DNA from: an uncultured Burkholderiales bacterium
GTDB taxonomy: Bacteria; Pseudomonadota; Gammaproteobacteria; Burkholderiales; Thiobacillaceae
Reading direction: 5' to 3'
Length of the DNA: 32,610 bases
Assembly (NCBI GenBank): GCA_938038385.1
Contig: CALHRD010000095.1
Location: forward strand, 1-32,610
The first letter of the stretch is position 1; the number at the start of each line of letters is the position of its first letter. Below, one piece after another: positions 2 through 14,202 of this stretch. A model generated the notes under the pieces. That model ran no database searches. It saw nothing but the letters and a program-made list of their open reading frames with translations, and had not been told where the DNA came from. Both the position numbers and the translations under genes were made by a program.

Positions 2-349
2 AACGACCAGGCCATTCGCGCCCTGGACGACATCGCCGTGCAGGCGGCGAAGGACCTGATGCTCGAGACCATAGACCAGCGCCTCCGGGAGATCGTCGGA
101 CGCAGCGCCGAGTGGCAGCAGATCGCCAAGCAGTTCCGCGACCAGGCCGCGGAGGCGGACCGGTGCGCGGCGGAGATCCGTCTGGAAAAGGCGCACAAGG
201 TGGCCGTCTCCCTGACCGAGAGCGTACACCTGCTACAGGACCTGCGCGCCAGCCTGAGTGACACCGACGACCCGGAGTTCGCCAGGAATGTCGCCAAGGC
301 GGTGGAGACACTGCAGAAACTGCGGGCCCAGATCGAGCGGGTGGCGTGA
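2..349 (+). CDS. C-terminal fragment of a helical/coiled-coil protein of the TIR-MoxR island
   Basis: The frame is open from the first bases of the window and ends at TGA 347-349, so only the last ~115 residues are visible and the true start lies upstream. A GTG at 38 could start a shorter protein but has no convincing ribosome binding site. The fragment has no recognisable catalytic motif. It is rich in Ala, Glu, Arg, Leu and Gln, with long runs expected to be helical (for example AEADRCAAEIRLEKAHKVAV), so a coiled-coil or helical bundle is likely. It ends 31 bases before the first TIR gene on the same strand, which suggests a shared operon. I do not recognise the family; it could be an adaptor or sensor subunit of the conflict system downstream. 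Confidence 0.6.
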   Translation, partial: NDQAIRALDDIAVQAAKDLMLETIDQRLREIVGRSAEWQQIAKQFRDQAAEADRCAAEIRLEKAHKVAVSLTESVHLLQDLRASLSDTDDPEFARNVAKAVETLQKLRAQIERVA

Positions 350-380
350 GGCTGCCAGGCGGCCGTCCCGCCACATCAGG

Positions 381-1592
381 ATGAGCGACATCTTCATCAG
401 CTACCGCCGCGCCGATGCCGGCTGGGCCGGCCGGCTGCTCGAGTGCCTGGAGGATCGTTTCGACGTCTTCTTCGACACCGAGGACATCGACAGCGGCGAC
501 CTCTTCCCGGAACGGATCGAGTCGGCCCTGGCGGCGTGCAGGGTCTGCTGCGTGGCCATCGGTCCCGAGTGGGGCAGGCCCAGACAGCTCAGGCGGCTGG
601 CCGATGCGCGCGACTGGGTCAGACAGGAGATCGTCGGCGTGCTCGGCCGGCCGCGGGTACGGGTGATCCCCCTGCTGCTGGGCGGGGCCAACATGCCCGA
701 GGAGGCGGCTCTGCCCGAACCGCTGCGCCCGCTATTGCAGCGCAACGCCTTCATCCTCAGCCACGACAAGTGGAAGAGCGACTGTGACGAGCTGATCCGG
801 CGCATGGAGGGCTGGCTCTCCACCCAGGCCCCGGAGGGTGCCGCGCGCGGTGAGCTACCGCCGGTATTGCCCTTCCTGTGCGACCGCGTGCCCCAGGAGG
901 ACGGGCTGGTGGACCAGCTGGCGGCCCAGGGGCACCGTCATCCCGTCTGCATCGTGCACGGCTATCTGCTGGAGGCGCACGAGGGCTTCCTCGATCGCCT
1001 CCGGCACCGACAATTCCTCGGCGACCTGTTCGGCTGCCGGGAGCTGGGGGTGGCGGTCTGCCGTCTGGAATGGAATCGCGAGGCGGCTGCTGCGGGGCTC
1101 TACCAGGACCTGCTCAAGCGGGCCCTGCGGCGCAACGTGCTCAAGCGCCTGACCGCCACCGAGGCCGACCTAAAGGCCCTGCTGGCGAATCCGGGACAAC
1201 CCCTGGTGCTCGTCATGCAGGTGTCCTGGGCCGACCTCCTGGCCTGCGGCGAGGGTTTCCTGCCCGGCGTCACCCAGGCCTGGCACGGCCTGTTTGCGGC
1301 GGGCGAGCCGGCCTGGCCCATGTTGCTGTGGATCAACGTCGCCTATGACAGCATGGACCAGGCGCTGGCCACGGACACCCTGCCGGGTGTCCTGCCCCGG
1401 CTGGGTCCCATCACCCAGGGCCATGTGCAGGAATGGCTGGGCCAGGACGACGTGCGCCGTTTCGCGCTCGGCCAGGAGGCGCAGGTCCTGGCCCTGACAC
1501 AGGACAGCAGCTGCTGCTTCGAGCCGGGCAAGCTGCACATGCAGGACTTTGCCGACCATGTGCGCCAAGTCCTGACCGGACGCCGGGCCTGA
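381..1592 (+). CDS. TIR domain protein with C-terminal inactive-STAND-like domain
   Basis: 403 residues from ATG 381. This start gives MSDIFISYRR, matching the N-termini of the three TIR paralogues downstream; the frame is open further upstream to 258, but that part is low-complexity Arg/Pro. Residues 1-145 form a TIR domain: FISYRR box, FDTEDI, and DWVRQE with Glu83 aligning to the catalytic glutamate of SARM1 (WVHKE), followed by VRVIPLLLGGANMP. NAD+ cleavage is therefore plausible. Residues ~158-400 (starting PPVLPFLCDRVPQEDGLVDQL) resemble the 'inactive STAND' domain of prokaryotic conflict proteins. The P-loop position reads VCIVHGYLLEAHEGF and has no GK[ST], so ATP binding is unlikely. 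No membrane span is seen. It sits between the coiled-coil fragment and the MoxR ATPase (35-bp gap). The TIR call is firm; the STAND-like call is from remembered family patterns. Confidence 0.88.
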   Translation: MSDIFISYRRADAGWAGRLLECLEDRFDVFFDTEDIDSGDLFPERIESALAACRVCCVAIGPEWGRPRQLRRLADARDWVRQEIVGVLGRPRVRVIPLLLGGANMPEEAALPEPLRPLLQRNAFILSHDKWKSDCDELIRRMEGWLSTQAPEGAARGELPPVLPFLCDRVPQEDGLVDQLAAQGHRHPVCIVHGYLLEAHEGFLDRLRHRQFLGDLFGCRELGVAVCRLEWNREAAAAGLYQDLLKRALRRNVLKRLTATEADLKALLANPGQPLVLVMQVSWADLLACGEGFLPGVTQAWHGLFAAGEPAWPMLLWINVAYDSMDQALATDTLPGVLPRLGPITQGHVQEWLGQDDVRRFALGQEAQVLALTQDSSCCFEPGKLHMQDFADHVRQVLTGRRA

Positions 1593-1627
1593 TCGGCAGG
1601 CATCGGACATGAACGAGGGATGATCCT

Positions 1628-2629
1628 ATGTACTACACACTCGACATCAGCGACATCCGGGACGTACCCAGCCAATCCGGACTGCCCCCAAGCGACCACC
1701 CTTCCGGCTACCGGCCCGACCCCGGCCTGGTGGACGCGGTCGACGTGGCCCTGGTGCTCAACAAACCCCTGTTGCTGACCGGCGAGCCCGGTACCGGCAA
1801 GACCCAGCTCGCCTACAGCGTCGCCTGGCAGCTGGCGGCGCGCGGCCAGCTCAACGTCGCCACCGACCGCCTGGAGAAGTTCGAGACCAAGTCCACCAGC
1901 CAGGCCATGGACCTGTTCTACACCTTCGACACGCTGCGTCGTTTCCAGGCCGCCCAGACCGGCGGCAGCACCAACAATGCCGACTATCTGAGCTTCAACG
2001 CCCTCGGACGCGCCCTGATCAACGCCCTGCCGCTGGATGCGGTGCGGGCCTGGTTGCCGCCGGGTTTCGTGCATGCGGGGCCGACACGCAGCGTTGTGTT
2101 GATCGACGAGATCGACAAGGCGCCGCGCGACTTCCCCAACGACCTGTTGAACGAGATCGAACAGATGTACTTCCGCGTGCCGGAACTGGGCAACGTGGCC
2201 ATCGGCGGACCCGGCGTCCTGGCCGAGACGTTGCGGCCCATCGTCTTCCTCACCAGCAATTCGGAGAAGAACCTGCCCGACCCCTTCCTACGCCGCTGCG
2301 TCTACTACCACATCCCCTTCCCGGACCGCGACCGCCTGCAGGAGATCCTACTCGCGCGCCTGACCCGTCTTGGGGCCACGGCAGGCCCCCTGCTGGAGGA
2401 GGCCCTCGCCTTTTTCCTCGATCTGCGCGAGGCACATGCCCTGCACCGTCGCATCTCCCCCGCCGAACTGATCCAGTGGCTGACCTGGATGTTGGCGGCC
2501 GGCGCCCGCCCCGAGCAGCGCCTGCGGGAGGCCAGACAGCTCGCCCTGGCCGGTCTCGGGGCCATCGTCAAGGACCCCGCCGACCAGCCCCAGGTACGCG
2601 CCCTGCTGGAAGACTTTCTCGCGGCCTGA
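1628..2629 (+). CDS. MoxR-type AAA+ ATPase
   Basis: 333 residues from ATG 1628, with GAGGGA about 8 bases upstream. Walker A is GEPGTGKT (residues ~56-63), Walker B is VVLIDEID (~157-164), and sensor 1 lies in VFLTSNSEKNLPDPFLRRC, which also supplies the arginine finger region. The C-terminal helical lid is present, and the length fits MoxR-like ATPases. MoxR proteins act as chaperone-like hexamers that remodel partners, usually a vWA-domain protein encoded next door. Here the next gene, 15 bases downstream, carries a CoxE-like N-terminus and a degenerate vWA-like domain. That pairing matches the MoxR-vWA unit of the ternary conflict systems described by Aravind and co-workers (from memory). 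It is likely co-transcribed with the TIR gene upstream. The ATPase call is secure; its exact role here is inferred. Confidence 0.9.
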   Translation: MYYTLDISDIRDVPSQSGLPPSDHPSGYRPDPGLVDAVDVALVLNKPLLLTGEPGTGKTQLAYSVAWQLAARGQLNVATDRLEKFETKSTSQAMDLFYTFDTLRRFQAAQTGGSTNNADYLSFNALGRALINALPLDAVRAWLPPGFVHAGPTRSVVLIDEIDKAPRDFPNDLLNEIEQMYFRVPELGNVAIGGPGVLAETLRPIVFLTSNSEKNLPDPFLRRCVYYHIPFPDRDRLQEILLARLTRLGATAGPLLEEALAFFLDLREAHALHRRISPAELIQWLTWMLAAGARPEQRLREARQLALAGLGAIVKDPADQPQVRALLEDFLAA

Positions 2630-2644
2630 CCGCCGCACCGCTCC

Positions 2645-5600
2645 ATGCCCCGCAACCGAGCACCTGAGCGCGACCTCGCCGATCTGGTCGAACGGCTGCG
2701 CTCCGCCGGCTTCAGGGTCGATACCCGCCAGTACCTGACGGCACACGAACTGCTGCTCGCCTGGGCCGCCCGCGGTCGACGTCTGGAAGACGACACCGCG
2801 GCTTTGATCTCGCATCTGGGTCCGGTGTTCTGCACCTCCGCCCGCGAGCAGGACCGCTTCGGCGACGTGGTGCGGGCCTGGCTCAGCCCGCCTCGACGGG
2901 AACGCCGCCGTCCGCTGCGTGAGCCAACACCGTTCCGTTCCTGGCGACATCGACGCTGGCTGTTGCCGTCGCTGCTCATCCTCCTGGCGGCCCTCGCCGC
3001 GGCCCTGCCGGCCTGGTGGTACGCCACCCAGCCGGTCCTGCTGCCGGGCAGGGTCTACACCCTCACGCCGGACGGGGCGCGCCTGCCGGCCGCGCAGGCC
3101 AGGCTCGACCTGGCCGGGACAACGGTGGTCGTGGACGCGACAGGCCGTTTCCAGCTCGAACTGCGCCGGCGTGACGGTCCGCAGGACCTGTCGGTGGAAT
3201 TGCCGGGCTACCGGGGCACGATCTACCGCGTGGACGCCGAGACCCCGCAGCCGCTGGAATTGTGGCTCTCGCCGCTGCCAGCCCTGCCGCCCGTGCCCCC
3301 TGCCACGACCGAGGCCCTGGTGACGTTCGGTGAACCGCGCGTCATCCACCATCCGCCCAGCCCGCCGAATCTCCTCGTCGAACGCGTGACCCCCTGGGGT
3401 CTGGCAATCCCATGGGGTGTCCTGACGGCCTTGGTCGCCTATGCGCTCTGGACCCTGGCCGAGTGGCTGCGTCGGACCCTGATCCTGCGCCGTCTGCCCG
3501 CGGACGGGCGTGCCGAACTCAAGACCCTGGTCACCGACCCGCCCGCGCCGCGTAGCCTGGACGACCGTGCCTTCCGCCGTCTGGCGGCCGATCTGCGGCG
3601 GCCGCGCGGCCAGGCCGCACGCGATCTGGACGTGAAAGCCAGCGTGCAGGCCACCATCCGCCGCAGTGGCCTGTTCCAGCCGGTCTGGAAGGCGCGCCAG
3701 GTCACGCCCGAGTATCTGGTGCTCATCGGCCGCCACGACCTGGAGGATCACCAGACTCGCCTGTACGACGAACTCATGCAGCGGCTGGCGGATCGCGGCG
3801 TGGCCCTCGATGTGCTGTATTTCCGCGACGATCCACGCCTGTGTCACCGCGAAGACGCGCGACCGGCTGCCCTGGGTGAGCTCGTGCAACAACACCACCG
3901 CGCGGTGCTGTTCCTTCACATGGAGGCCCAGCGCTGCTTCAACCCCATCAGCGGCGAGCCGGAACCCTGGCTGGAGGCCTGCACGGTCTGGTCGCGGCGG
4001 GTGCTGTTCACGCCCGTGCCGCCGGCGCACTGGACCCGGCACGAAAAGGCCCTGGCGGAGGCCGGTTGGCTGGTCCTGCCAGCGGGCGAGGCAGGACTTG
4101 CGGCCTATACCGGCATTGGCGAGGAATGGCGTATCGACAGCCTGTTCCCCGCAGCCTACGCGCGGCCCTATCCACCCTTGCTCACCGACACGCCGGGTCG
4201 CTGGCTGCTGCATAGCGCGCCGCCCGCACCAGTGGTCGAGAACCTGGTGCGGCAACTGCATGGCTACCTCGGCAAGGACGGCTTTGCCTGGCTGGCGGCC
4301 TGCGCCGTCTACCCGGAGGTGGCCTGGCCGCTCACCCTGCGCATGGCCGAGACCCTGCCCGAGCTCGCCCGGCGGCCCGAGCGGGTGGCGGCGTTGCTGC
4401 CGGCGCTGGCCAGACTGCCCTGGTTCCGCCACGGGGCCATGCCTGACTGGCTGCGCCTGACCCTGATCAGCCTGCTCACCCCGGCGCAGAAGCACGTCGT
4501 GCATCGCTCGCTGGAAGCCCTGTTGGAGCGCGCAGCGGATGCGATGCTGGCCGGACGGCGCGCGCCCGGCCTCAATATCGCGGCCTGGATCGGCCCCATG
4601 GACGTGCTGCGCACCGAGCCGGCCGGCAGCCCGCTGCGCGATACGGTGTTCATCGGCTACCTGTCCGGGGTGAATCTGGACGCGCTATCGCTGCTGGCAC
4701 CTTCCAGCCTGGGCAGGCTGTTTCGCCGACTCCACCCGCTGCCGGCAGGGCGAAGAACCCTCGGTGCCGCGGGCGGCTGGTTGCGCCGCATGCTGGGTCG
4801 ACTGCGCGGCTGGCTGCTCGATCGGCCCGCCCTCGGTCGCAGCATGATCGCCGGTGCACTGGGCCTGGCGGTTACCGGCCTGCTGGCGACCCTGCTCACG
4901 CGCACGGTGGAACAGACCCTGGCCCCCCAACCCGGTGAATTCACCGCCATGGCCCTGTCGCAGGACGGCCGGCGGCTTGCCGCCGCCTCCACGGACAGCC
5001 TCGGCCGGATCTGGGACGTGACGGGCGGCGCCCCGGTGGTGCTGGAGGGCCATGGCGGCGGCGTGGCCGACATCGCCTTCAGTCCCGACGGCAGCCGCGT
5101 GGCCACCGCCTCGGAGGATGGCAGTGCCAAGCTTTGGGACGCCGCCAGCGGCAGCTTGCTTCACGTCCTGCAACACGAGGGACCGGTCGGCGCCGTCGCC
5201 TTCAGCCCGGACGGCAACCGGGTGGCCACGGGCGCTGCGGACGGTACGGTCAGGCTCTGGGCCACGGCGAACGGCAGCGAACTGACTCGGGTGGATGCCG
5301 GCAGGCCGGTCGCCTCGGTACGCTTCGTCCCCGACGGCAGCCAGCTCGTCACCGAAGCGCGCGGCGAGGGCTGGCAACAGTGGCGCCTGGAGGCTGCGGG
5401 CCTGCGTACGCTGGCGGTGGTGCCGGCGGCCGGCATCGCCGGGCTTCGTTTCAGCCCCGACGGGTCGCGCCTGGTGACGGTGTCAAGCGCTGGCCCGGTC
5501 CAGGTGCTGGCCACGTCGGACCGCCGTGTGCTGGCCACCCTCGGCGCACGGGACGCACCAGCGGCGGACGCCGCCTTCAGCCCGGACGGCAGGTGGGTGG

Positions 5601-6274
5601 TGACCGCCGGTGAGGATGGGGTGGTACGCCTGTGGGAGGCCGGCAGCGGCCGCCTCCTGGCGAGCCTGCCGGGCGATGGTCGTCCCCTGCGTCAGGCCCT
5701 CATCGGCCCTGACGGGGCATCGCTCATCACCCTGGGTTCAGACCGGGTATTGAGCTGGCCCCTGCGCAGCAAGCCGCCCGCAATACGCCCTCCCGAGCAG
5801 AAGACAGCCGATGTCCGGCTGCCCGACAGGCAGGCCCTGGTCATCACGCCGCGTGTCGTGGGGCTGCGCCTGGATATGGCGGAGAAGACCCTGGCCGGGG
5901 CTGGCCTCAGGATGGGACCGGTCGCCACCCAGACCCTGGACGGCCGCATGCCCCCGGGGACCATCATCGGCCAGTCGCCGCAGCCGGGAGCCCAGGTGGC
6001 GCGCGGCAGCGCCGTCAGCCTGCAGGTTCAGGGGGTGCCCGTGACCGCGCAGAAAGCAACAGTGGGCTGGTGCTGCATCATCGCGGATCAGACCAGCCAG
6101 CGCCAGCAGCCCGGCGGCGTGTTCCCCATGGATGTGAAGGAATGCCAGAGTCGGGGTGGCCTATATTACGAGGACGAAGTTCGTGCCCGGGAGGAGTGTG
6201 CACGCTTCGCCGGTCTTGGCCGGGACAACGTCGCACCCACCGCGCCGGCGCAACTGCGCCTGCAGGCGTATTGA
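2645..6274 (+). CDS. Membrane protein with CoxE-like/degenerate vWA, WD40 propeller and PASTA domain
   Basis: 1209 residues from ATG 2645, 15 bases after the MoxR gene. Residues 1-82 form a helical domain (LVERLRSAGFRVDTRQYLTA...) like the N-terminus of CoxE-type vWA proteins. A membrane span at ~105-126 is followed by a beta domain (~130-210), a Pro-rich linker and a second span (~250-272). Residues ~350-495 look vWA-like (PEYLVLIGRHDLEDHQ, GVALDVLYFRDDP) but lack the DxSxS MIDAS motif. A helical region (~530-690) leads to a third span (~733-752). Seven WD40 blades follow (~761-1040; FSPDG...LWD signatures), then a PASTA domain (~1064-1130) and a tail with WCC, C1167 and C1185. This predicts a cytoplasmic vWA region facing MoxR and an exported propeller plus PASTA, the latter a fold that often binds peptidoglycan. 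It probably transmits envelope signals to the ATPase; this is inference. Confidence 0.85.
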   Translation: MPRNRAPERDLADLVERLRSAGFRVDTRQYLTAHELLLAWAARGRRLEDDTAALISHLGPVFCTSAREQDRFGDVVRAWLSPPRRERRRPLREPTPFRSWRHRRWLLPSLLILLAALAAALPAWWYATQPVLLPGRVYTLTPDGARLPAAQARLDLAGTTVVVDATGRFQLELRRRDGPQDLSVELPGYRGTIYRVDAETPQPLELWLSPLPALPPVPPATTEALVTFGEPRVIHHPPSPPNLLVERVTPWGLAIPWGVLTALVAYALWTLAEWLRRTLILRRLPADGRAELKTLVTDPPAPRSLDDRAFRRLAADLRRPRGQAARDLDVKASVQATIRRSGLFQPVWKARQVTPEYLVLIGRHDLEDHQTRLYDELMQRLADRGVALDVLYFRDDPRLCHREDARPAALGELVQQHHRAVLFLHMEAQRCFNPISGEPEPWLEACTVWSRRVLFTPVPPAHWTRHEKALAEAGWLVLPAGEAGLAAYTGIGEEWRIDSLFPAAYARPYPPLLTDTPGRWLLHSAPPAPVVENLVRQLHGYLGKDGFAWLAACAVYPEVAWPLTLRMAETLPELARRPERVAALLPALARLPWFRHGAMPDWLRLTLISLLTPAQKHVVHRSLEALLERAADAMLAGRRAPGLNIAAWIGPMDVLRTEPAGSPLRDTVFIGYLSGVNLDALSLLAPSSLGRLFRRLHPLPAGRRTLGAAGGWLRRMLGRLRGWLLDRPALGRSMIAGALGLAVTGLLATLLTRTVEQTLAPQPGEFTAMALSQDGRRLAAASTDSLGRIWDVTGGAPVVLEGHGGGVADIAFSPDGSRVATASEDGSAKLWDAASGSLLHVLQHEGPVGAVAFSPDGNRVATGAADGTVRLWATANGSELTRVDAGRPVASVRFVPDGSQLVTEARGEGWQQWRLEAAGLRTLAVVPAAGIAGLRFSPDGSRLVTVSSAGPVQVLATSDRRVLATLGARDAPAADAAFSPDGRWVVTAGEDGVVRLWEAGSGRLLASLPGDGRPLRQALIGPDGASLITLGSDRVLSWPLRSKPPAIRPPEQKTADVRLPDRQALVITPRVVGLRLDMAEKTLAGAGLRMGPVATQTLDGRMPPGTIIGQSPQPGAQVARGSAVSLQVQGVPVTAQKATVGWCCIIADQTSQRQQPGGVFPMDVKECQSRGGLYYEDEVRAREECARFAGLGRDNVAPTAPAQLRLQAY

Positions 6275-6372
6275 TGGCCTGCCGCCACGATGGCATTGAC
6301 CCTACGGTCTGGGCGTGGAATGGTTGCTGCGTCCGAGTCCGGTAGGCCGCCGGCATGAACCAGGAGACGAAC

Positions 6373-7860
6373 ATGAAGGGCATGTTCATCAGCTATCGCA
6401 GGGTGGATGCGGCCGGCCACGCCGGCAGGCTGTTCGACCGGCTGGCGGCCCACTTCGGCAAGGACGCCGTCTTCATGGACGTCGAGGGGATCGAGGCCGG
6501 CGTCGACTTCGTCGAGGTCATCGAGCAGGCCGTGGGCGGCTGTGCCGTGCTGCTCGCGGTCATCGGCCGTAGCTGGCTGACCTGCATGGACGAGCAGGGT
6601 CGGCGGCGGCTGGACGACCCGCAGGATTTCATCCGCCTGGAGATCGGCAGCGCCCTGGCGCGCAAGGTGCGGGTCGTGCCGGTCCTGGTGGAAGGGGCGC
6701 TGATGCCGCCGGTCGAGACCCTGCCCGAGGACCTGCGTCCCCTGGCCCGGCGCCAGGCGGTGGAGTTGCGCGACAGCCGCTGGGACAGCGATGTGGAGGC
6801 CCTGATCGCCGTGCTGGAGCGGATCCTGGCCATGGAACGGTCCCCCGCCCAGGCCACGCCGCCCGGCCAGCAGCGTATTCCGACCCAGGCGGGGCAGGGT
6901 GGCAGTCCGGTCCGGCGCAATCCCACCGCCTGGCTGGGTGGTGCCCTCGCCCTGATAGCCGCGGTGCTCGTGGCGGCATATCTGCTCAGGCCCGTGACGG
7001 CAGGGCGGGGCGCGGAGGATGCGGCAGCCGGGATCGAGACCGGAGCGGCTTCCCCTACCGCGCAAACCCGTGGCGCGCAGCCTGCCGCGGAGACGTCCAT
7101 AGCCGTGCCGGCCACGCAGGCGTCCCGGCCCGAACCAGCGGCGCCGCCCGACGAGGGGATGACGAGGGCGGCCATACCGGCTGCGCCGAGCGGCGTGCAG
7201 ACGCCACCGAAGGCCCAGGCCGACATCCGTCGTGCGGGACCTCAGGCTGCCCCGGACCCTGCCCGCGCGACAGCCGCCGCCGTGCCCCGTTTACCCGAAG
7301 CGTCCACCGAGATGGCGCAGGCGGCACCGCCGCCCGAAACACCCGTCAGTCCCGGCAGCACGACCCAGACCGTCATGAGCCAGCCGCCTGACCCGACGCC
7401 CCCGCCGCGGATCATCGCCGTTCTGGCCCGTGGTGAACCCAGCCGTCGGGATTTCTGGGCGGGAGAATCGACCCAGACCTACAGCGCCAAGATGGCCGCC
7501 CTTTACGGCGAGACTCTGCAGGAGCTGGCCACCGCCGGGGTCATGGTCAGGGCACGATCCAGCGGCGAATCGGTGTTGGCCCTGATGGAGGGCATACCCG
7601 CTGCCCGGCGTCAGGTCTGTGACGGCACGGGCGCGGCCGTCGTCTATGTGGCTCAGGCACAGGAGGGCTTCAGTATCTCGCGCACCGAGAGCGCCTATTG
7701 GCCTGAGCTCCGCCTGGCTGCCTTCCCCTGCGACCGCGACCGGTTGTACACGAACAGGTACGGCCTCTCCCCTCGTCGCGGCGATGCCTTCCCGTTCGCC
7801 AAGGACATGGGCGAGGCCATGCTGGGTTTCGCGCGCGACAGCCGGCATCTGCTGCCGTGA
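6373..7860 (+). CDS. Transmembrane TIR protein with novel exported C-terminal domain
   Basis: 495 residues from ATG 6373. That start is preceded by CAGGAG at good spacing and gives MKGMFISYRR like the paralogues; an in-frame ATG at 6355 lacks a site. Residues 1-150 form a TIR domain with FISYRR, FMDVEGIEAG, DFIRLE (Glu90 at the SARM1 catalytic position) and VRVVPVLVEGALMP. A single membrane span (~185-205, AWLGGALALIAAVLVAAYLL) is preceded by Arg residues, predicting a cytoplasmic N-terminus. A Pro/Ala-rich linker of about 140 residues, suited to crossing periplasm or cell wall, ends in a compact domain (~346-495) that I do not recognise. That domain has two cysteines (RQVCDG, FPCDRD) that could form a disulfide. 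It starts 98 bases after the WD40 gene. The TIR and topology calls are firm; a sensor role for the tail is inferred. Confidence 0.87.
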   Translation: MKGMFISYRRVDAAGHAGRLFDRLAAHFGKDAVFMDVEGIEAGVDFVEVIEQAVGGCAVLLAVIGRSWLTCMDEQGRRRLDDPQDFIRLEIGSALARKVRVVPVLVEGALMPPVETLPEDLRPLARRQAVELRDSRWDSDVEALIAVLERILAMERSPAQATPPGQQRIPTQAGQGGSPVRRNPTAWLGGALALIAAVLVAAYLLRPVTAGRGAEDAAAGIETGAASPTAQTRGAQPAAETSIAVPATQASRPEPAAPPDEGMTRAAIPAAPSGVQTPPKAQADIRRAGPQAAPDPARATAAAVPRLPEASTEMAQAAPPPETPVSPGSTTQTVMSQPPDPTPPPRIIAVLARGEPSRRDFWAGESTQTYSAKMAALYGETLQELATAGVMVRARSSGESVLALMEGIPAARRQVCDGTGAAVVYVAQAQEGFSISRTESAYWPELRLAAFPCDRDRLYTNRYGLSPRRGDAFPFAKDMGEAMLGFARDSRHLLP

Positions 7861-7872
7861 ACGATTGAGGCC

Positions 7873-9024
7873 ATGTCCGGCATCTTCATCAGCTACCGCC
7901 GCGAGGACAGCGCAGGTTTTGCCGGACGTCTGGCTGACGCCCTGGAAAAAGGGCTCGGTTCCGAGCAGGTCTTCCGCGACGTGGACGACATCCGGCCGGG
8001 CCAGGACTTCGTCGAGGCCATCGAGAACCAGTTGCGCGCCATGGACGTGGTGCTGGTCCTGATCGGGCCGCAGTGGCCGCGAATCGCGCGCGACGGCGTG
8101 CGCCGTCTGGATGACCCGGACGATTTCGTGCGGCTGGAGGTCCGCCTGGCGCTGGCGCTGGGCAAGCCGCTGATCCCGGTCCTCGTCGGCGGCGCCCGCA
8201 TGCCGGCAGAGGCGGACCTGCCAGAGGACATCCGCGCCCTGGCCAGACGACAGGCCCTCAGCCTGTCCGACGCCGGCTGGAAGACGGACGTCGCCCGCCT
8301 GAGCGAGGCCATCCGGTCCCTGCTCGGCGGCCGTCGCTGGGTCGGCCCGGGTCGGCGCCCCCTGGCCTGGGGGCTGGCGGGGGCAGTCCTGGCCGGATTG
8401 CTGGCGATCCTGATCCTGATGCTCGCCCCCTGGCAGGCAGAGGAACCCAGTATGCCATCGCCTCCGCAGGCATCGGACAGCGCATCGACGCCATCCGGCC
8501 ACAGGCCGTCCGAGGAAACACCCCGACCGACTGTGAGCACACCCCAGCCGTCATTGCCCGCGCCACCGCGTGTCGCGCCGGTGACACCAGTGCCCGCTGA
8601 ACCGCGGCCGGCAACGATCCCTCGGGCGCAGCCGCAGTCCGCGGGGCCGAACCTCACACCCGTGCAACCGCAGCCCGTCGTCCCCCCCGCGCCATCCGGT
8701 CGCTGGACGGCCACGATCCGCTACGACTGGGGTGACACGCATCCGGAGGTGTTCGAATTCGAGGTCGCAGCGGGCGAGGTGTTCGGCACCGCCAGCTACC
8801 TGAGGACGCCGCGCGCCATTCAGGACGGCCGCATCAGCGGTAACCGTCTGAGCTTCATCACCCAGAGCCAGGAGATGCTGGGCGGCGGCGATGCGATCAG
8901 GACGGTCACGCACCGCTACCGCGGTACCCTCGAGGGGGATGTCATCCGCTTCAGCCTTGAAAGCGGCGGTGGCCACTCCATCCATGCACCGGTGCGATTC
9001 GAGGCCCGGCGCGCCACCGAGTGA
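7873..9024 (+). CDS. Transmembrane TIR protein with beta-rich exported C-terminal domain
   Basis: 383 residues from ATG 7873, with GAGG 4 bases upstream and 12 bases after the previous stop, so probably the same transcript. Residues 1-150 form a TIR domain: MSGIFISYRR, FRDVDDIRPG, DFVRLE with Glu89 as the putative catalytic residue, then LIPVLVGGARMP and LPED. A membrane span at ~164-186 is followed by a Pro/Ser/Thr-rich linker (~187-278). The C-terminal ~100 residues (from GRWTATIRYDWGD) have alternating hydrophobic residues and Gly turns typical of a beta-barrel or sandwich ligand-binding fold, with FEVAAGEVFGTASY and DGRISGNRLSF. The predicted arrangement is a cytoplasmic TIR effector tethered to an exported sensor. 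The ligand cannot be inferred. Confidence 0.87.
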   Translation: MSGIFISYRREDSAGFAGRLADALEKGLGSEQVFRDVDDIRPGQDFVEAIENQLRAMDVVLVLIGPQWPRIARDGVRRLDDPDDFVRLEVRLALALGKPLIPVLVGGARMPAEADLPEDIRALARRQALSLSDAGWKTDVARLSEAIRSLLGGRRWVGPGRRPLAWGLAGAVLAGLLAILILMLAPWQAEEPSMPSPPQASDSASTPSGHRPSEETPRPTVSTPQPSLPAPPRVAPVTPVPAEPRPATIPRAQPQSAGPNLTPVQPQPVVPPAPSGRWTATIRYDWGDTHPEVFEFEVAAGEVFGTASYLRTPRAIQDGRISGNRLSFITQSQEMLGGGDAIRTVTHRYRGTLEGDVIRFSLESGGGHSIHAPVRFEARRATE

Positions 9025-9071
9025 CGCTGCTATGCTGAGATCAAATCTGCACAGGACGGGAGGGTGACGCG

Positions 9072-10091
9072 ATGCCAGGGATCTTCATCAGCTATCGCCG
9101 CCAGGACAGCCAGAGCGCTGCCGGGCGCCTGGCCGATCATCTGCGCGAGCATCTGCCGCAGGTCACCATCTTCCGCGATGTCGAGACCATCGAACCGGGT
9201 GTGGACTTCGTCCAGGCGATCGAAAAGGCCCTGGCCAGTTGCGGCGTGATGCTGGTGGTGATCGGACCGCGCTGGCTCACCGTGACGGACGCCGCTGGGC
9301 GGCGTCGTCTGGACGATCCGCGCGACTACACCCGACTGGAGGGGGCCACCGCGTTGGGCCGGGAATCGGTGCGTGTCATCCCGGTGCTGGTGGAGGGGGC
9401 CAGCATGCCTGCGGAGACGGACCTGCCGGAGGACTTGCTGCCGCTGTGCCGGCGCAATGCCATCGAACTGACGGACAAGCGCTGGGAATACGATGTCTCC
9501 CAGCTGGTGGAGACCGTGCGCAAGGTCCTGGGCGTGGCCGCAGACTCCCCCCGGCCCGTGCCGACCATCCAACCAGCAGCACCTCCTCCGACCAGGGCGT
9601 TTGCCAGGTGGACCGTGATCGGCGGCGCGCTCCTGTTGGTCGTCGCCGGCTATCTGCTCGTCAACGGCGGCGAAGAGCCCCTCTCCGTACCGGGGCCGGA
9701 GATCACTGCCGGCAACCCCGCCATACCCGCCGACCCGTCCCCGCCGGCCGTGTCGGGCCCTGTGGCGGAACTGCCGCCGGGTATCGAGCCGACCCCCACC
9801 CAACCCGCCCAGCCGATCAATCTGACCGGACTGTGGCAGGACGACGAGGGCGGCCGGCATCAGATCGCCCAGCAGGGCAACCGCATCGCGGTGCAGGGGG
9901 TGACGCCAGAGGGAATCGTCTATGGCGCCGGCGAACTGCGGGGCCGCACCGGCTGGGTGGAGTACACCCTGAACGGCTACCCGTTGCGCGCAGCTCTGGA
10001 GGTCGCGGCCAACGGCGAACAGATGCGGGTGGTAGTCGTCGATGCAGCCACAGGGGAGCGCGACGTCCTGACCATGCATCGGATAAAGTAG
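9072..10091 (+). CDS. Transmembrane TIR protein with small exported beta-domain
   Basis: 339 residues from ATG 9072, preceded by GGGAGGG at good spacing. The TIR domain (1-150) has MPGIFISYRR, FRDVETIEPG, DYTRLE with Glu90 in the catalytic position, and VRVIPVLVEGASMP. A membrane span (~179-197) and a Pro-rich linker lead to a C-terminal domain (~250-339) beginning LTGLWQDDEGGRHQIAQQGN. That domain resembles the short beta-rich 'G-W...Q-G' modules common in exported hypothetical proteins. It is distinct from the C-terminal domains of the two preceding paralogues, so the TIR part was duplicated while the outer part changed. The 47-base gap upstream includes a slightly A/T-richer stretch (TATGCTGAGATCAAAT) that might hold a weak promoter, but I cannot show this. 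Confidence 0.87.
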   Translation: MPGIFISYRRQDSQSAAGRLADHLREHLPQVTIFRDVETIEPGVDFVQAIEKALASCGVMLVVIGPRWLTVTDAAGRRRLDDPRDYTRLEGATALGRESVRVIPVLVEGASMPAETDLPEDLLPLCRRNAIELTDKRWEYDVSQLVETVRKVLGVAADSPRPVPTIQPAAPPPTRAFARWTVIGGALLLVVAGYLLVNGGEEPLSVPGPEITAGNPAIPADPSPPAVSGPVAELPPGIEPTPTQPAQPINLTGLWQDDEGGRHQIAQQGNRIAVQGVTPEGIVYGAGELRGRTGWVEYTLNGYPLRAALEVAANGEQMRVVVVDAATGERDVLTMHRIK

Positions 10092-10095
10092 GGTC

Positions 10096-11514
10096 ATGGC
10101 GGCCGTGCAGATCAGCTTCCTGGGTTCCGCGCGCGAGGTGACCGGCGCGTGCTTCATGGTGCAGGCCGAGGGCCTGCGCTTCCTGGTCGAGTGCGGCCTG
10201 TTCCAGGGCGGCCGCGATGCGGACGTGAAAAACCGGGCCTTTCCCGCCTTCGACCCGGAGTCGATCGACTTCGTCCTGCTCACCCATGCCCATATCGACC
10301 ACTCCGGGCTGCTGCCACGGTTGGTCACATTGGGTTTCCGCGGCCCGGTCTACTGCACCCGAGCCACCGCCGACCTGCTTGCCGTGATGCTGCCGGATGC
10401 CGCCTTCATCCAGGAGAAAGAGGCGGAGTGGGCGAACTACGACCGGCGCAAGAAGAACGGCGAACTCAGGGACGAGGTGGCACCCCTGTACACCGTCGCC
10501 CAGGCCCACGCCTGTCTGCGCCGGTTGCAGGGGGTCGGCTACGACCAGGCGCTGCACCCGCATCCGCAGGTCCGGGTGCGTTTCCGCGACGCCGGCCACA
10601 TCCTCGGCTCCGCCAGCCTGGAGGTCTGGCTGGAGGCGGGCGGACACACCCGCAAGCTGGTGTTCTCCGGCGATCTGGGCATGCCCGGCCGGCCGGTGGT
10701 GAACGACCCGACGCCGATCGAGGCGGCCGACTACCTGCTGGTCGAATCCACCTACGGCAACCGCCTGCACAAGGGGATGAAGGAGACGGTCGACGAACTC
10801 GCGCACGCCGTCAACGACACCCTGGGTCGCAAAGGCGGCAACGTCATCATTCCCGCCTTCGCCGTGGGACGCACGCAGGAGATCCTCTATCTGCTCATGG
10901 ACCTGGTGCGCAAAGGGCGGCTGCCGCGCAACCTGGCAGTGTTCGTCGACTCCCCCATGGCCAGCGCCGCCACCGAGATCACCCTCAAGCACCAGGCCCT
11001 GCTCGACCCGGATACGCAGGCACTGCTGGCGTGGTTCCGATCCAGCCCGGACGCCCCCTACCTGCGGGTGACCGAGGACGTGGAGGATTCCATGGCCCTG
11101 AACAAGATCAAACAAGGGGCCGTCATCATCTCCGCCTCCGGCATGTGCGATGCCGGGCGCATCAAGCATCACCTCAAGTTCAACCTGCCGCGGCCCGAGT
11201 GCACGGTCGTCATCACCGGCTTTCAGGCGCAAGGCACCTTGGGCCGCCAACTAGTGGACGGGGCGAAGACGGTGCGCATCTTTCGCGAGGAGGTGCCGGT
11301 GCGTGCCGATCTCTACACCCTGGGCGGACTCTCCGCCCATGCCGACCGCGATGCCCTCGTCGCCTGGTTGCGCCACTTCCGGCAGCCGCCGCGCAAGACC
11401 TTCGTCGTGCACGGCGAGGCGCAGACGGCCATGGGCTTCGGCGATCTGATCCGCGATGCGATGGGCTGGCCGGTCGAGATTCCCGAGGCGGGTGCGGTCC
11501 ATCAACTGGGCTGA
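10096..11514 (+). CDS. Beta-CASP metallo-beta-lactamase RNA-processing nuclease (YSH1/CPSF73-like)
   Basis: 472 residues from ATG 10096, only 4 bases after the preceding TIR stop, so translational coupling is likely. The MBL core has THAHIDHSG (the HxHxDH zinc motif), FRDAGHILGSAS and FSGDLG. The beta-CASP insert is marked by LLVESTYGNRLH, IPAFAVGRTQEILY and VFVDSPMA, with SASGMCDAGRI, GFQAQGTLGR, GGLSAHAD and VVHGE in the C-terminal half. Length and motif order match bacterial and archaeal members of COG1236, zinc-dependent endo/exoribonucleases. Such genes are usually housekeeping or of unknown role. Here the gene closes an otherwise conflict-system-like operon, so it could be an RNA-degrading effector, or an unrelated gene that happens to follow. 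The enzyme family is certain; membership of the system is not. Confidence 0.92.
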   Translation: MAAVQISFLGSAREVTGACFMVQAEGLRFLVECGLFQGGRDADVKNRAFPAFDPESIDFVLLTHAHIDHSGLLPRLVTLGFRGPVYCTRATADLLAVMLPDAAFIQEKEAEWANYDRRKKNGELRDEVAPLYTVAQAHACLRRLQGVGYDQALHPHPQVRVRFRDAGHILGSASLEVWLEAGGHTRKLVFSGDLGMPGRPVVNDPTPIEAADYLLVESTYGNRLHKGMKETVDELAHAVNDTLGRKGGNVIIPAFAVGRTQEILYLLMDLVRKGRLPRNLAVFVDSPMASAATEITLKHQALLDPDTQALLAWFRSSPDAPYLRVTEDVEDSMALNKIKQGAVIISASGMCDAGRIKHHLKFNLPRPECTVVITGFQAQGTLGRQLVDGAKTVRIFREEVPVRADLYTLGGLSAHADRDALVAWLRHFRQPPRKTFVVHGEAQTAMGFGDLIRDAMGWPVEIPEAGAVHQLG

Positions 11515-11681
11515 GAGCGGCGCTACCCGGCAGCCCAGACAATCAGGTCGATGGCGCCGCGGCGGGGGCTGCCGCGAGGGGTGCGAGGCAACGGGGCCAA
11601 AGGCGAGAGAGCCATGGCGAAAGAACCGAAGGCACCCGTGGACCCGGTTGTTGCCTCCTTGCAGATGGACGCCAATCGACA

Positions 11682-11700
11682 CCCACCCGGTCCGGGTGGG
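11682..11700. repeat. 19-nt perfect palindrome upstream of cytochrome c gene
   Basis: CCCACCCGGTCCGGGTGGG is symmetrical around one central T at 11691. It lies 167 bases after the nuclease gene and 100 bases before the cytochrome start. As RNA it would form a strong GC hairpin, but no T-run follows on either strand, so it is not a classical intrinsic terminator; an operator or Rho-assisted stop is possible. Between it and the cytochrome gene an A/T-rich tract (11729-11760) contains TAAAAT and TATGCT, possible -10 elements, but no clear -35 box. The rest of 11515-11800 shows no gene I can support. Confidence 0.5.
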
Positions 11701-11800
11701 ATACACATCAGTCGGCGGGGTGGTCCGGTAAAATCAGAATATGCTAACGCAATAGCAAAACTTACCAACCTGTCCTGTCAACCCCTCCAAGGAGAACGTC

Positions 11801-12163
11801 ATGAAAAAAGCCCTGTTGATGTCTGCCCTCGCAGTTGGAATCAGTATGCCCGCCATGGCCGGCGATCCGGTCGCCGGCCAGCAGAAGGCCGGCGCCTGCA
11901 TCGTCTGTCACGGCACCACCGGCTTCCCGGGCATCTTCTATAGCTATCAGCTGGCTGGTCGCAATGCCGACAAGCTGACCGTCAAGACCAACAAGTACCG
12001 CACCGGCAAGATCCTGCACCCGATCATGAACCTGGCGGTGCTGCCACTGACCGACAAGGACGTGGAAGACATCTCCGCCTACTACCAGTCCCTGCAGCAG
12101 CCGGTCATGATCCCCTTCGTCGCCATCAAGGGTGACGACGACGAGCCCACCCAGGCCAAGTAA
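11801..12163 (+). CDS. Small periplasmic c-type cytochrome
   Basis: 120 residues from ATG 11801, with AAGGAG 8 bases upstream. A Sec signal peptide (MKKALLMSALAVGISMPAMA, cleavage before Gly21) precedes a single haem-binding site CIVCH (Cys33, Cys36, His37). Met76 in ILHPIMN is the probable sixth ligand, so this is a class I monohaem cytochrome of the c4/c5/c553 type. It would shuttle electrons in the periplasm. The acidic tail (GDDDEPTQAK) is exposed and flexible. No oxidase or dehydrogenase partner is adjacent, so its redox partners cannot be named. It appears to be a single-gene unit. Confidence 0.9.
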   Translation: MKKALLMSALAVGISMPAMAGDPVAGQQKAGACIVCHGTTGFPGIFYSYQLAGRNADKLTVKTNKYRTGKILHPIMNLAVLPLTDKDVEDISAYYQSLQQPVMIPFVAIKGDDDEPTQAK

Positions 12164-12258
12164 GGCCGTTCCATATTGCCCTGCGGGGCATCCCTCATGT
12201 GCACGTCTCGCTCATACACTCCGGGCGGGGCGTGCCTGAGATCACCACAGGCTGTAGA

Positions 12259-12275
12259 GACCCGTTTCTCGGGTC
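12259..12275 (+). other. Short hairpin in the leader of the Hsp15-like gene
   Basis: GACCCG-TTTCT-CGGGTC forms a perfect 6-bp stem with a 5-base loop, ending 33 bases before the hslR-like start. No T-run follows. It could be a leader structure or chance in GC-rich DNA. Confidence 0.25.
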
Positions 12276-12308
12276 CCGGATCACCCCCTGCAGCAGACGG
12301 CCTCCCGC

Positions 12309-12683
12309 ATGCGCATAGACAAGTGGCTGTGGGCCGCCCGCTTCTTCAAGACCCGCACACTCGCCACTCAGGCGGTGGAGGGGGGCAAGGTCAAGCTCGA
12401 CGGCGTGCGCGTCAAACCCGCCAAGGAAGTTCGACCGGGTGACCGCCTGCAGGTGCAGGTCGGAGAATACGCATGGGACCTCACCGTGGTGTCCCTGTCA
12501 GACCGGCGTGGCCCGGCGACCGAGGCCCGCACGCTTTACCAGGAAGACGAGACGAGCCGCGCCAGACGTGAGCAACAACAGCGCGACCGGGGCCTGCACG
12601 CGAGCCCTGGCGGGGACCTGAGGGGCCGTCCGACGAAGAAGTCGCGCCGGCTGATCCGCCGCTTCACCGAAGGACCGGATTGA
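12309..12683 (+). CDS. hslR: S4-domain RNA-binding protein, Hsp15-like
   Basis: 124 residues. The N-terminus MRIDKWLWAARFFKTRTLA with AVEGGKVKLDGVRVKP and VRPGDRLQV is the S4 RNA-binding fold (residues ~1-60) as found in Hsp15. The C-terminal half is highly charged (SRARREQQQRDRG, KKSRRLIRRF), as in the family. Hsp15 binds free 50S subunits carrying a stalled nascent chain with peptidyl-tRNA and helps recycle them under heat stress. The length is close to the E. coli protein. No obvious heat-shock promoter was recognised upstream. The family call is strong. Confidence 0.88.
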   Translation: MRIDKWLWAARFFKTRTLATQAVEGGKVKLDGVRVKPAKEVRPGDRLQVQVGEYAWDLTVVSLSDRRGPATEARTLYQEDETSRARREQQQRDRGLHASPGGDLRGRPTKKSRRLIRRFTEGPD

Positions 12684-12765
12684 CCGGGCGGTAAAGCAAA
12701 GAACCTGTATCCGTGTCGATCACGCCCAACCTTGCGGAGGCCAGACTCGCAGGTCGGACTCGCAG

Positions 12766-12870
12766 GTCAGGCTTCAGTCCGACGCTTTCCCGACGCTTTC
12801 GTTGTCGGGCTGAAACCCGACCTACGGACCATGCTGGGGGGTCGGGCTGAAACCCGACCCACGGACCATG
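12766..12870. repeat. REP-like hairpin repeats (two near-identical copies and one diverged)
   Basis: Two 30-nt units at 12804-12833 and 12841-12870 differ at a single base and lie 37 nt apart. Each holds the hairpin GTCGGG-CTGAAA-CCCGAC followed by C(T/C)ACGGACCATG. A diverged third hairpin, GTCAGGCTTCAGTCCGAC, lies at 12766-12783, preceded by a doubled GACTCGCAGGTC motif (12744-12768). The pattern (short GTCGGGCT...CCGAC palindrome in an intergenic space) matches REP-type elements scattered in gammaproteobacterial genomes. No RAYT transposase gene is in the window. Confidence 0.7.
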
Positions 12871-12939
12871 TGGTGTGAGGACCACGGATTCAGGAAAGAA
12901 GATTGTCAGCGGGCCATGCGGCAGGCTATTTTTCGACCT

Positions 12940-14202
12940 ATGGACCAATACGACCTGATCATCGTCGGCGGCGGCATCAGCGGACTGACCCTGGCCTGCA
13001 GGGCGGTCTACGGCAACCGGCTGTCCATCCTGGTCCTGGAGAAGGAAGAGCGACTGGGCGGCAGCCTGCATACCTGGCGGGTGGGGAGCGATTTCTGGGT
13101 CGAACTCGGTGCCCACACTGCATACAACTCCTACAAGAACCTCCTCCAGGTGCTGCAGGAGAGACAGGGTTTGGACCGGCTCACACGGCGGGCCAAGTTG
13201 GGTTACCGCTTCCTGAACGAGGATCGTCTGCAGTCCCCCATTGCCAGACTGGGCTGGTTCGAACTGATGACCAGCCTGCCCTTCGGCCTCATGCGCGGGC
13301 AGGAGGGGGCCTGCCTGGCCGAGTACTATGGCGCCCTGTTCGGCCGGCGCAACTATGCGCGTCTGCTCGCTCCCGCCTTCGCGGCCGTGCTGTCCCAGCC
13401 GGCAGACGGCTTTCCGGCGCAATGGCTGTTCCGGCGCAAACCGCGCATGAAGGAGGCGCCGCGCAAATACACCTGGCCCACAGGCCTGCAGGGGCTGGCC
13501 GAGGCCCTGGTCGAGGAGGCCCCCTTCGAGGTCAGGACCGGCGTGGGGGTGACCGCGGTGCGCAGAAAGGCGGATGGCTACGAGATCGACGCCGGTGGCC
13601 GCAGCATGCATTGCCGCTACCTCGCCATGGCAACTCCGCCCGACGTGGCGGCACACCTGCTCCTGGACGGTCATCCCAGGCTGGCCACCAGGCTGAGCGC
13701 CATACCCATGGCCGAGATCGAATCCATGGCGGTGGCGGTTGCGGCAGAGAAGGTCAAACTGCCCCAGCTTGCCGGCCTCATCGGTGTGAACGATGTCTTC
13801 TACTCCGTTGTCAGCCGTGATTACCTGGCGCATCCCAGGCTCCGCGGTTTTACCTTCCATTTCCGCCCGCACCGGTTGGACCGGGATGCGAAACTCACCC
13901 GCATTTGCCAGGTGCTGGGAATTACAGCGGACGACCTCATGGCCCAGCGCGAGGTGTGCAACCGTCTGCCCGCCCTGGAGGTCAGCCATGTCAGTCTGAT
14001 GGAGGAGGTCAACGACCTGATCAAGGGCCGGCGGCTGTTTCTCACCGGCAATTATTTCCAGGGCATGTCCATCGGTGATTGCGCCGATCGGTCGACCCGG
14101 GAGGCGTATCGATTGCTCAAGACCGTCAAGAAGCACGCCGGGTCTCACCCGGCTGTACCCGATACCCCGACGACAGGTGGGGTGACGGTCGTGGACGCCT
14201 GA
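12940..14202 (+). CDS. FAD-dependent amine-oxidase-fold protein, protoporphyrinogen oxidase-like
   Basis: 420 residues from ATG 12940 (MDQYDLIIVGGG), the start that puts the Rossmann motif at the N-terminus. The frame is open back to 12868, but that ATG lies inside the REP-like repeat; 12916 is an alternative. The dinucleotide-binding motif GGGISGLTLA is followed by LEKEERLGGSLHTW and FWVELGAHTAYNS. Near the C-terminus FLTGNYFQGMSIGDCADRS resembles the FAD-contacting GNYxxGVSxGDC segment of protoporphyrinogen IX oxidase. The family oxidises protoporphyrinogen in haem synthesis or related polycyclic substrates. The N-terminal ELGAH departs from the usual PPO pattern, so the substrate is uncertain. 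The DJ-1 gene begins 24 bases downstream and may be co-transcribed. Confidence 0.78.
   Translation: MDQYDLIIVGGGISGLTLACRAVYGNRLSILVLEKEERLGGSLHTWRVGSDFWVELGAHTAYNSYKNLLQVLQERQGLDRLTRRAKLGYRFLNEDRLQSPIARLGWFELMTSLPFGLMRGQEGACLAEYYGALFGRRNYARLLAPAFAAVLSQPADGFPAQWLFRRKPRMKEAPRKYTWPTGLQGLAEALVEEAPFEVRTGVGVTAVRRKADGYEIDAGGRSMHCRYLAMATPPDVAAHLLLDGHPRLATRLSAIPMAEIESMAVAVAAEKVKLPQLAGLIGVNDVFYSVVSRDYLAHPRLRGFTFHFRPHRLDRDAKLTRICQVLGITADDLMAQREVCNRLPALEVSHVSLMEEVNDLIKGRRLFLTGNYFQGMSIGDCADRSTREAYRLLKTVKKHAGSHPAVPDTPTTGGVTVVDA

Follow-up and report, generated by a model that had tools for sequence, protein, structure and literature searches.

The iSTAND ternary systems, predicted from sequence only, were defined by Kaur et al. 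2020 in eLife (PMC7159879). Their third component is an inactive STAND (iSTAND) protein, on which TIR domains occur, and their von Willebrand factor A (vWA) component has a CoxE-like 4-helix N-domain, N-terminal transmembrane (TM) segments in about 28% and PASTA, PEGA or OmpA domains after a TM segment. That work takes the C-terminus for the effector, whereas a study of ternary systems diversified by diversity-generating retroelements (DGRs) takes the C-terminal module for a sensor and proposes that the vWA component relays signals from outside inwards via MoxR (PMC10907252). Here, we compared with these systems a locus in a window of 32,610 nucleotides, the whole stretch of DNA that was analyzed (contig CALHRD010000095.1 of an uncultured Burkholderiales bacterium). 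The feature under study is a single frame of 1209 aa at 2645–6274 (+), placed exactly as in the initial annotation. With a probability of about 0.7, we consider this protein to be a membrane-spanning vWA co-chaperone, the sensor or platform subunit of an iSTAND ternary (putative anti-invader) system with three membrane-anchored TIR proteins.

Class and domain layout of the locus

The core genes and the parts of the 1209-aa protein are as follows.

381–1592 (+): TIR-iSTAND protein, third core component (Pfam, iSTAND profile, TIR alignment)
1628–2629 (+): MoxR AAA+ ATPase, 333 aa (Pfam AAA_5 1.9e-8 and alignment)
2645–6274 (+): vWA component, 1209 aa (open reading frame and Pfam)
2666–2884 (+): CoxE-type helical N-terminal domain, residues 8–80, predicted cytoplasmic (hhalign against CoxE N-terminal domains, E 1.9e-6, probability 90)
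2957–3013 (+): TM1, residues 105–123, in to out (hydropathy and charge; kept in 30/33 family members)
3014–3400 (+): TM1–TM2 loop domain, residues 124–252, predicted periplasmic (hydropathy and charge)
3401–3457 (+): TM2, residues 253–271, out to in (hydropathy, charge and family comparison)
3557–4144 (+): vWA domain with degenerate metal-ion-dependent adhesion site (MIDAS), residues 305–500 (AlphaFold2, Foldseek, hhalign)
3728–3730 (+): G362, position of the MIDAS strand-1 Asp (35-member alignment)
3746–3748 (+): D368, invariant in 35/35 and aligned with the GGSMD Asp of CoxE (family and CoxE alignments)
3923–3925 (+): E427, position of the MIDAS strand-4 Asp (35-member alignment)
4157–4744 (+): helical linker domain after the vWA domain, at the vWA-L position, with conserved LARLPWFRxGxMPDWLR (alignment and AlphaFold2 model)
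4844–4900 (+): TM3, residues 734–752, in to out (hydropathy and charge)
4913–5779 (+): WD40 beta-propeller, about residues 757–1045, predicted periplasmic (Pfam)
5843–6028 (+): PASTA domain, residues 1067–1128, predicted periplasmic (Pfam)
6047–6271 (+): Cys-containing tail, WCC...C......C (sequence)

By its domain composition, the locus is an iSTAND ternary conflict system as described by Kaur et al. (PMC7159879), not an undescribed device, and the conflict role of these systems is itself predicted. First, the third component is an inactive STAND protein. Its reading frame opens at 258, with the ATG at 381 as the likely start; the N-terminal TIR domain (TIR_2, 4e-14) has an aligned catalytic-type Glu (DWVRQE), and the C-terminal inactive STAND part matches PF19995 at 26.3 bits (cut-off 24). 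Second, the MoxR gene adjoining the vWA gene encodes a protein that lacks VMAP-type extensions and has intact motifs: Walker A GEPGTGKT, Walker B VLIDEID, sensor 1 TSNSE and the FLRRC arginine-finger region. Protein and profile searches, together with searches of genome contigs, gave 36 sequences, two of them identical, and in nearly all homologous loci with enough flank the order is likewise iSTAND, MoxR, vWA, as recognized with an iSTAND profile of the upstream genes; these loci range over cyanobacteria, Beggiatoa relatives, Gallionella, Azospirillum, Bacteroidota, an acidobacterium and Anaerolineae. The 1209-aa protein is thus no isolated fusion. Third, the vWA component combines the CoxE-like 4-helix N-domain with a variable C-terminus.

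The initial annotation had described one protein joining a vWA-like part, membrane spans, a WD40 propeller and PASTA, and this layout is confirmed by Pfam, hydropathy, and profile and fold matches. The propeller (PF00400, E 7e-39) has about seven blade-like repeats, counted by eye, and PASTA (PF03793) scores 44.1 bits (cut-off 23.2). The TM1–TM2 loop domain gave no match in the Pfam scan. The vWA-L position of the helical linker is named after PMC8195603. Relatives of the Cys tail were sought in the same genome, the homologs and plasmids, and none was found save a weak PASTA match in the same genome; if periplasmic, the tail may form a small disulfide domain.

The class itself is ordinary, as TM segments and PASTA are already listed for iSTAND systems. 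The locus shares with those of PMC7159879 the TIR-iSTAND, the MoxR, the vWA protein with its CoxE-like N-domain, the N-terminal TM segments, PASTA after a TM segment and the variable C-terminus; it differs in having WD40 and PASTA together behind TM3, in the loss of the strand-1 MIDAS Asp and in three extra TIR-TM genes. Beyond the known class, it adds an iSTAND lineage in which the whole family has lost DxSxS, and a TM hairpin in place of the NorD-type linker.

vWA fold and erosion of the MIDAS

A vWA/Rossmann fold had been proposed for residues 350–495, and it is present there, although the domain is somewhat larger, at about residues 305–500. Pfam assigns no domain to the vWA-like part itself, and the vWA core of the 34 aligned members has no common Pfam family. 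The family profile retrieves reading frames of ~390 aa, two of which were scanned by Pfam and are both VWA_CoxE; hhalign of the vWA part against 13 of these CoxE-like proteins gives E 3.3e-13 and a probability of 97.9. The predicted local distance difference test score of AlphaFold2 is 79 for residues 286–740 and 88.5 for residues 304–507. With both models, the top two PDB chains in Foldseek are the NorD vWA domain in the NorQ complex (probability 0.99–1.00), with E values of 1.6e-3 and 2.4e-3 for the 286–740 model and of 3.7e-4 and 7.0e-4 (probability 1.00) for the single-domain model. A PDB sequence search with the family profile gave no convincing match. VIA-align finds NorD at Z 7–8, where response regulators, cobalamin domains and other Rossmann folds score equally; because so many of these folds share the same Z, the result was not counted as vWA-specific and adds just an alpha/beta Rossmann-like fold in the model.

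The fold is homologous to those of CoxE and NorD. NorD, the closest solved fold, has the same order of N-domain, linker, finger and vWA domain and works with a MoxR-type motor (PMC13036017, PMC9976466). The CoxD/CoxE pair and the ~390-aa CoxE-like proteins are homologous by profile in both the N-domain and the vWA domain, but the CoxE-like proteins have no TM hairpin, keep DxGGSMD and lack C-terminal modules. In NorD of P. denitrificans, the finger lies at about 403–448 (PMC13036017). In the 1209-aa protein, a strand–helix–strand hairpin at about residues 321–353 precedes vWA strand 1, and VIA-align pairs 181 residues within model residues 1–191 with NorD 387–638. Since this range covers NorD 403–448, we infer from the aligned ranges that the hairpin is the equivalent of the NorD finger.

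The MIDAS shows distinct differences from that of canonical vWA partners of MoxR. The expected DxSxS site is occupied by LIGRHDLEDHQ, as the initial annotation had correctly read, but the site is no local oddity, because 0/35 family members have DxSxS. At column 362, the strand-1 Asp position, the 35 members have Asp in 22, Glu in five, Asn in five, and one each of Arg, Pro and Gly, so that D, E or N is kept in 32/35 and Gly occurs only in the 1209-aa protein. At column 427, the strand-4 Asp position, Asp is found in 24 and Glu in seven, E427 among them. The 1209-aa protein thus has neither the DxSxS (LIGRHDLED) nor the strand-4 Asp (Glu instead) of the MoxR-partner type, and across the alignment the loss of DxSxS is a family-wide trait. 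Kaur et al. assigned missing vWA aspartates to the FtsH and propeller systems (PMC7159879); as judged from the alignment, motif erosion also occurs in an iSTAND lineage, beyond the classes named there.

NorD has a DxSxS-T-D MIDAS that is required for its target, and NorD MIDAS mutants lose target function while retaining NorQ in co-purification (PMC9976466). Therefore, loss of the MIDAS need not uncouple MoxR. The picture of an otherwise canonical MoxR pair with a locally odd vWA domain does not hold, as the loss is a family rule and the MIDAS is dispensable for the AAA+ partner (PMC9976466). The expectation of a functional MoxR partner next to the MoxR gene is supported by the conserved operon, the profile link to CoxE and the fold match to MoxR-bound NorD. 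A VWA_CoxE match was not found in the same genome, and hence no canonical CoxE partner was found for the operon MoxR. In this family, a MoxR-partner vWA domain persists across phyla without DxSxS, which sets motor engagement, by the finger, apart from target capture, by the MIDAS.

Membrane topology and candidate mechanism

Topology was assessed from hydropathy and from the K+R counts in the 15 residues flanking each TM helix. The counts on either side are 5/1 for TM1, 1/4 for TM2 and 4/1 for TM3, which predicts the N-terminus and vWA domain inside, and the loop 124–252 and everything after residue 752 outside. The same arrangement, with the propeller and PASTA outside the cytoplasm and the vWA-like part inside, had been claimed from the start and is supported by these statistics both in the protein and in the family: 30/33 members have a TM hairpin between the CoxE-type N-domain and the vWA domain, and the mean K+R of the 30 hairpin proteins is 3.7 before TM1, 1.1 and 1.2 in the loop and 3.7 after TM2. 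The Bat-type BB0173 (PMC5700661) is also a membrane-bound vWA protein beside MoxR, but its vWA domain is periplasmic with an intact MIDAS, whereas here it is predicted to be cytoplasmic.

As seen in the sequence, the TM hairpin stands at the position of the NorD-type linker. In NorD this linker is unresolved and its deletion abolishes function; twisting and stretching by NorQ have been proposed for it (PMC13036017). Here, its place is taken by a TM hairpin that carries a domain outside, and by analogy the MoxR motor may act on the hairpin. A bolder extension, which we regard as rather improbable, is that MoxR ATP hydrolysis puts torque on the membrane hairpin, or that an envelope event gates the motor, so that a trans-envelope mechanical relay between AAA+ ring and cell wall would control TIR-mediated death without a MIDAS.

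Family membership, gene order, the CoxE-type N-domain, the vWA fold, MIDAS degeneration and the intact MoxR motifs are established by comparison, and the following mechanism can be proposed on this basis. The MoxR hexamer would engage the vWA protein in the same way as NorQ engages NorD, by the CoxE-like N-domain and by the finger region that has been kept. The eroded MIDAS would be unused for metal-dependent target capture; the C-terminal modules, the membrane hairpin and the helical vWA-L region would have taken over the choice of target. The propeller and PASTA would bind the cell wall or an envelope ligand, and ligand occupancy or damage outside would alter the hairpin and vWA domain and thereby the MoxR cycle. 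Finally, the cycle would release or assemble TIR-iSTAND for NAD+ cleavage, and the membrane TIR proteins would join by TIR–TIR contact. The envelope-to-ATPase signalling suggested by the initial annotation is plausible and has already been proposed for related systems (PMC10907252). The DGR-diversified vWA-CLec targets described there likewise join a vWA domain to a binding module next to MoxR, in a proposed sensor that relays through MoxR, but they carry variable repeats in a CLec fold where the present protein has WD40–PASTA, and they belong mostly to VMAP systems.

As for the direction of signalling, we consider outside-in signalling more probable than inside-out deployment of the C-terminal module. 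In the inside-out case, which is possible though clearly the lesser candidate, iSTAND would sense a cytoplasmic invader, MoxR would remodel the vWA protein, and WD40–PASTA would be a periplasmic or cell-wall effector. The C-terminal modules are indeed the variable part, with caspase, TIR/PNP and multi-TM regions among the homologs, and Kaur et al. treated them as effectors (PMC7159879). However, the modules outside (WD40 and PASTA here; LRR, FGE/CLec fold and IcmF in homologs) are binding folds without known toxic activity, whereas potentially toxic enzymes are encoded by the iSTAND and TIR genes, on the cytoplasmic side. Because binding folds are outside and toxic-type enzymes inside, the C-terminal module is moderately favoured as the sensor at this locus. 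Predicted-outside binding folds tied to MoxR by a TM hairpin make both the question of the sensor versus the killer end and the coupling of motor to envelope testable.

Several points weigh against the sensor-subunit interpretation as a whole. A caspase in two homologs and TIR/PNP in one stand at the vWA C-terminus, which fits an effector role there. The topology evidence is hydropathy and charge alone, the VIA-align Z of 7–8 cannot tell vWA from other Rossmann folds, and the same genome also encodes two further VWA_2 proteins and has additional MoxR genes. No experimental test of any iSTAND system was found in the literature searched.

The CoxE-like character of both cytoplasmic domains and the fold match to NorD would also suit a chaperone that matures an envelope metalloenzyme in the manner of CoxDE or NorQD. 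This is very unlikely, as iSTAND and four TIR domains surround the vWA gene, no client-like respiratory or metalloenzyme gene is present among the genes at 258–10091, there is no MIDAS of the kind on which NorD depends for its target, and the distribution is sporadic. Still less probable is a decayed system, in which loss of MIDAS residues marks a dying gene: no other family member has Gly at position 362, but the 1209-codon frame, the MoxR motifs and the TIR glutamates are all intact, the finger region is retained along with D368 and the acidic residue of strand 4, and DxSxS is absent in 35/35 members, hence no decay in this lineage. Equally negligible is a beta-propeller ternary system (subsystem 4 of Kaur et al.), which the fusion of vWA and propeller, in that order, and the degenerate vWA domains known there would recall: the bpMoxR profile PF20030 scores 15.6 bits (cut-off 27), the P-loop is GEPGTGKT and not GXXXTAKS, the third component is iSTAND, and TM3 separates the vWA domain from the propeller, so membership, defined by bpMoxR and the GXXXTAKS P-loop, was rejected.

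Two further classes were considered and rejected. An FtsH ternary system has a double FtsH AAA+ protein; here the third component is TIR-iSTAND, and Pfam finds no FtsH-type gene among 258–14202. A VMAP ternary system has VMAP-C; the neighbouring genes gave no VMAP match, and the third component is iSTAND.

Relatives, accessory TIR genes and history of the module

Relatives of the 1209-aa protein occur in cyanobacteria, Beggiatoa relatives, Gallionella, Accumulibacter, Azospirillum, Haliscomenobacter (Bacteroidota), an acidobacterium, a metagenome-assembled genome of Anaerolineae and others. Their C-terminal modules are varied: FGE-sulfatase fold, caspase, LRR, WD40, IcmF/TssM C-terminal domains, GUN4, TIR-EAD2-TPR-PNP and multi-TM regions. 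The homolog L051 of the cyanobacterium Mastigocoleus has the same layout of TM3 followed by WD40. In another (L002:76–4134, the same as L047:6528–10586), WD40 lies in the TM1–TM2 loop, predicted outside, beside a weak CarboxypepD_reg match, and the IcmF/TssM C-terminal domains of type VI secretion systems follow TM3. PASTA is found only in the 1209-aa protein among the 13 full-length family proteins scanned. The two caspase homologs (L045:7254–10898 and L056:7035–11024) have the caspase domain behind TM3; the prediction for L045 has just three TM helices, so its caspase would lie outside the cytoplasm, an odd location.

A scan of viral contigs gave no relative, and no close MoxR was found in 36 other genomes of the same taxonomic family. 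No Pfam iSTAND match was found in 60 related genomes, a search that is insensitive: genome G364 holds a vWA relative (L011) beside MoxR yet gives no iSTAND match. Because of this insensitivity, the evidence for absence in relatives is mainly the MoxR search.

Downstream of the vWA gene lie three accessory genes.

6355–7860 (+): TIR2, TIR-TM-periplasmic protein (Pfam and TIR alignment)
7873–9024 (+): TIR3, TIR-TM-periplasmic protein (Pfam and TIR alignment)
9072–10091 (+): TIR4, TIR-TM-periplasmic protein, likely the last gene of the accessory module (Pfam, TIR alignment, congener comparison)

The intergenic gaps from the TIR-iSTAND gene through TIR4 are 12–80 bases. Each of TIR2, TIR3 and TIR4 has a Glu aligned to the catalytic position of TIR NADases, in which this residue acts in catalysis. 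The outside domains of the three proteins (6355–10091) differ and have no Pfam match other than TIR; the proteins are possible homotypic partners of the TIR domain on iSTAND.

A beta-CASP RNase gene at 10096–11514 begins 4 bases after the TIR4 stop. It is conserved in the genus, also without TIR genes, and two congeners have no TIR gene on its upstream side; because of this conservation, it probably marks the host flank of the insertion boundary. A third congener, G658 (L088, contig 61), has TIR2 and TIR3 at 97% identity and the adjoining beta-CASP gene at 88%; TIR4 is missing, and the contig ends inside TIR2, short of where any core genes would lie. Since TIR genes are lacking upstream of beta-CASP in two congeners and the identity in G658 is 97% versus 88%, this comparison indicates that the module is accessory and has probably been exchanged recently.

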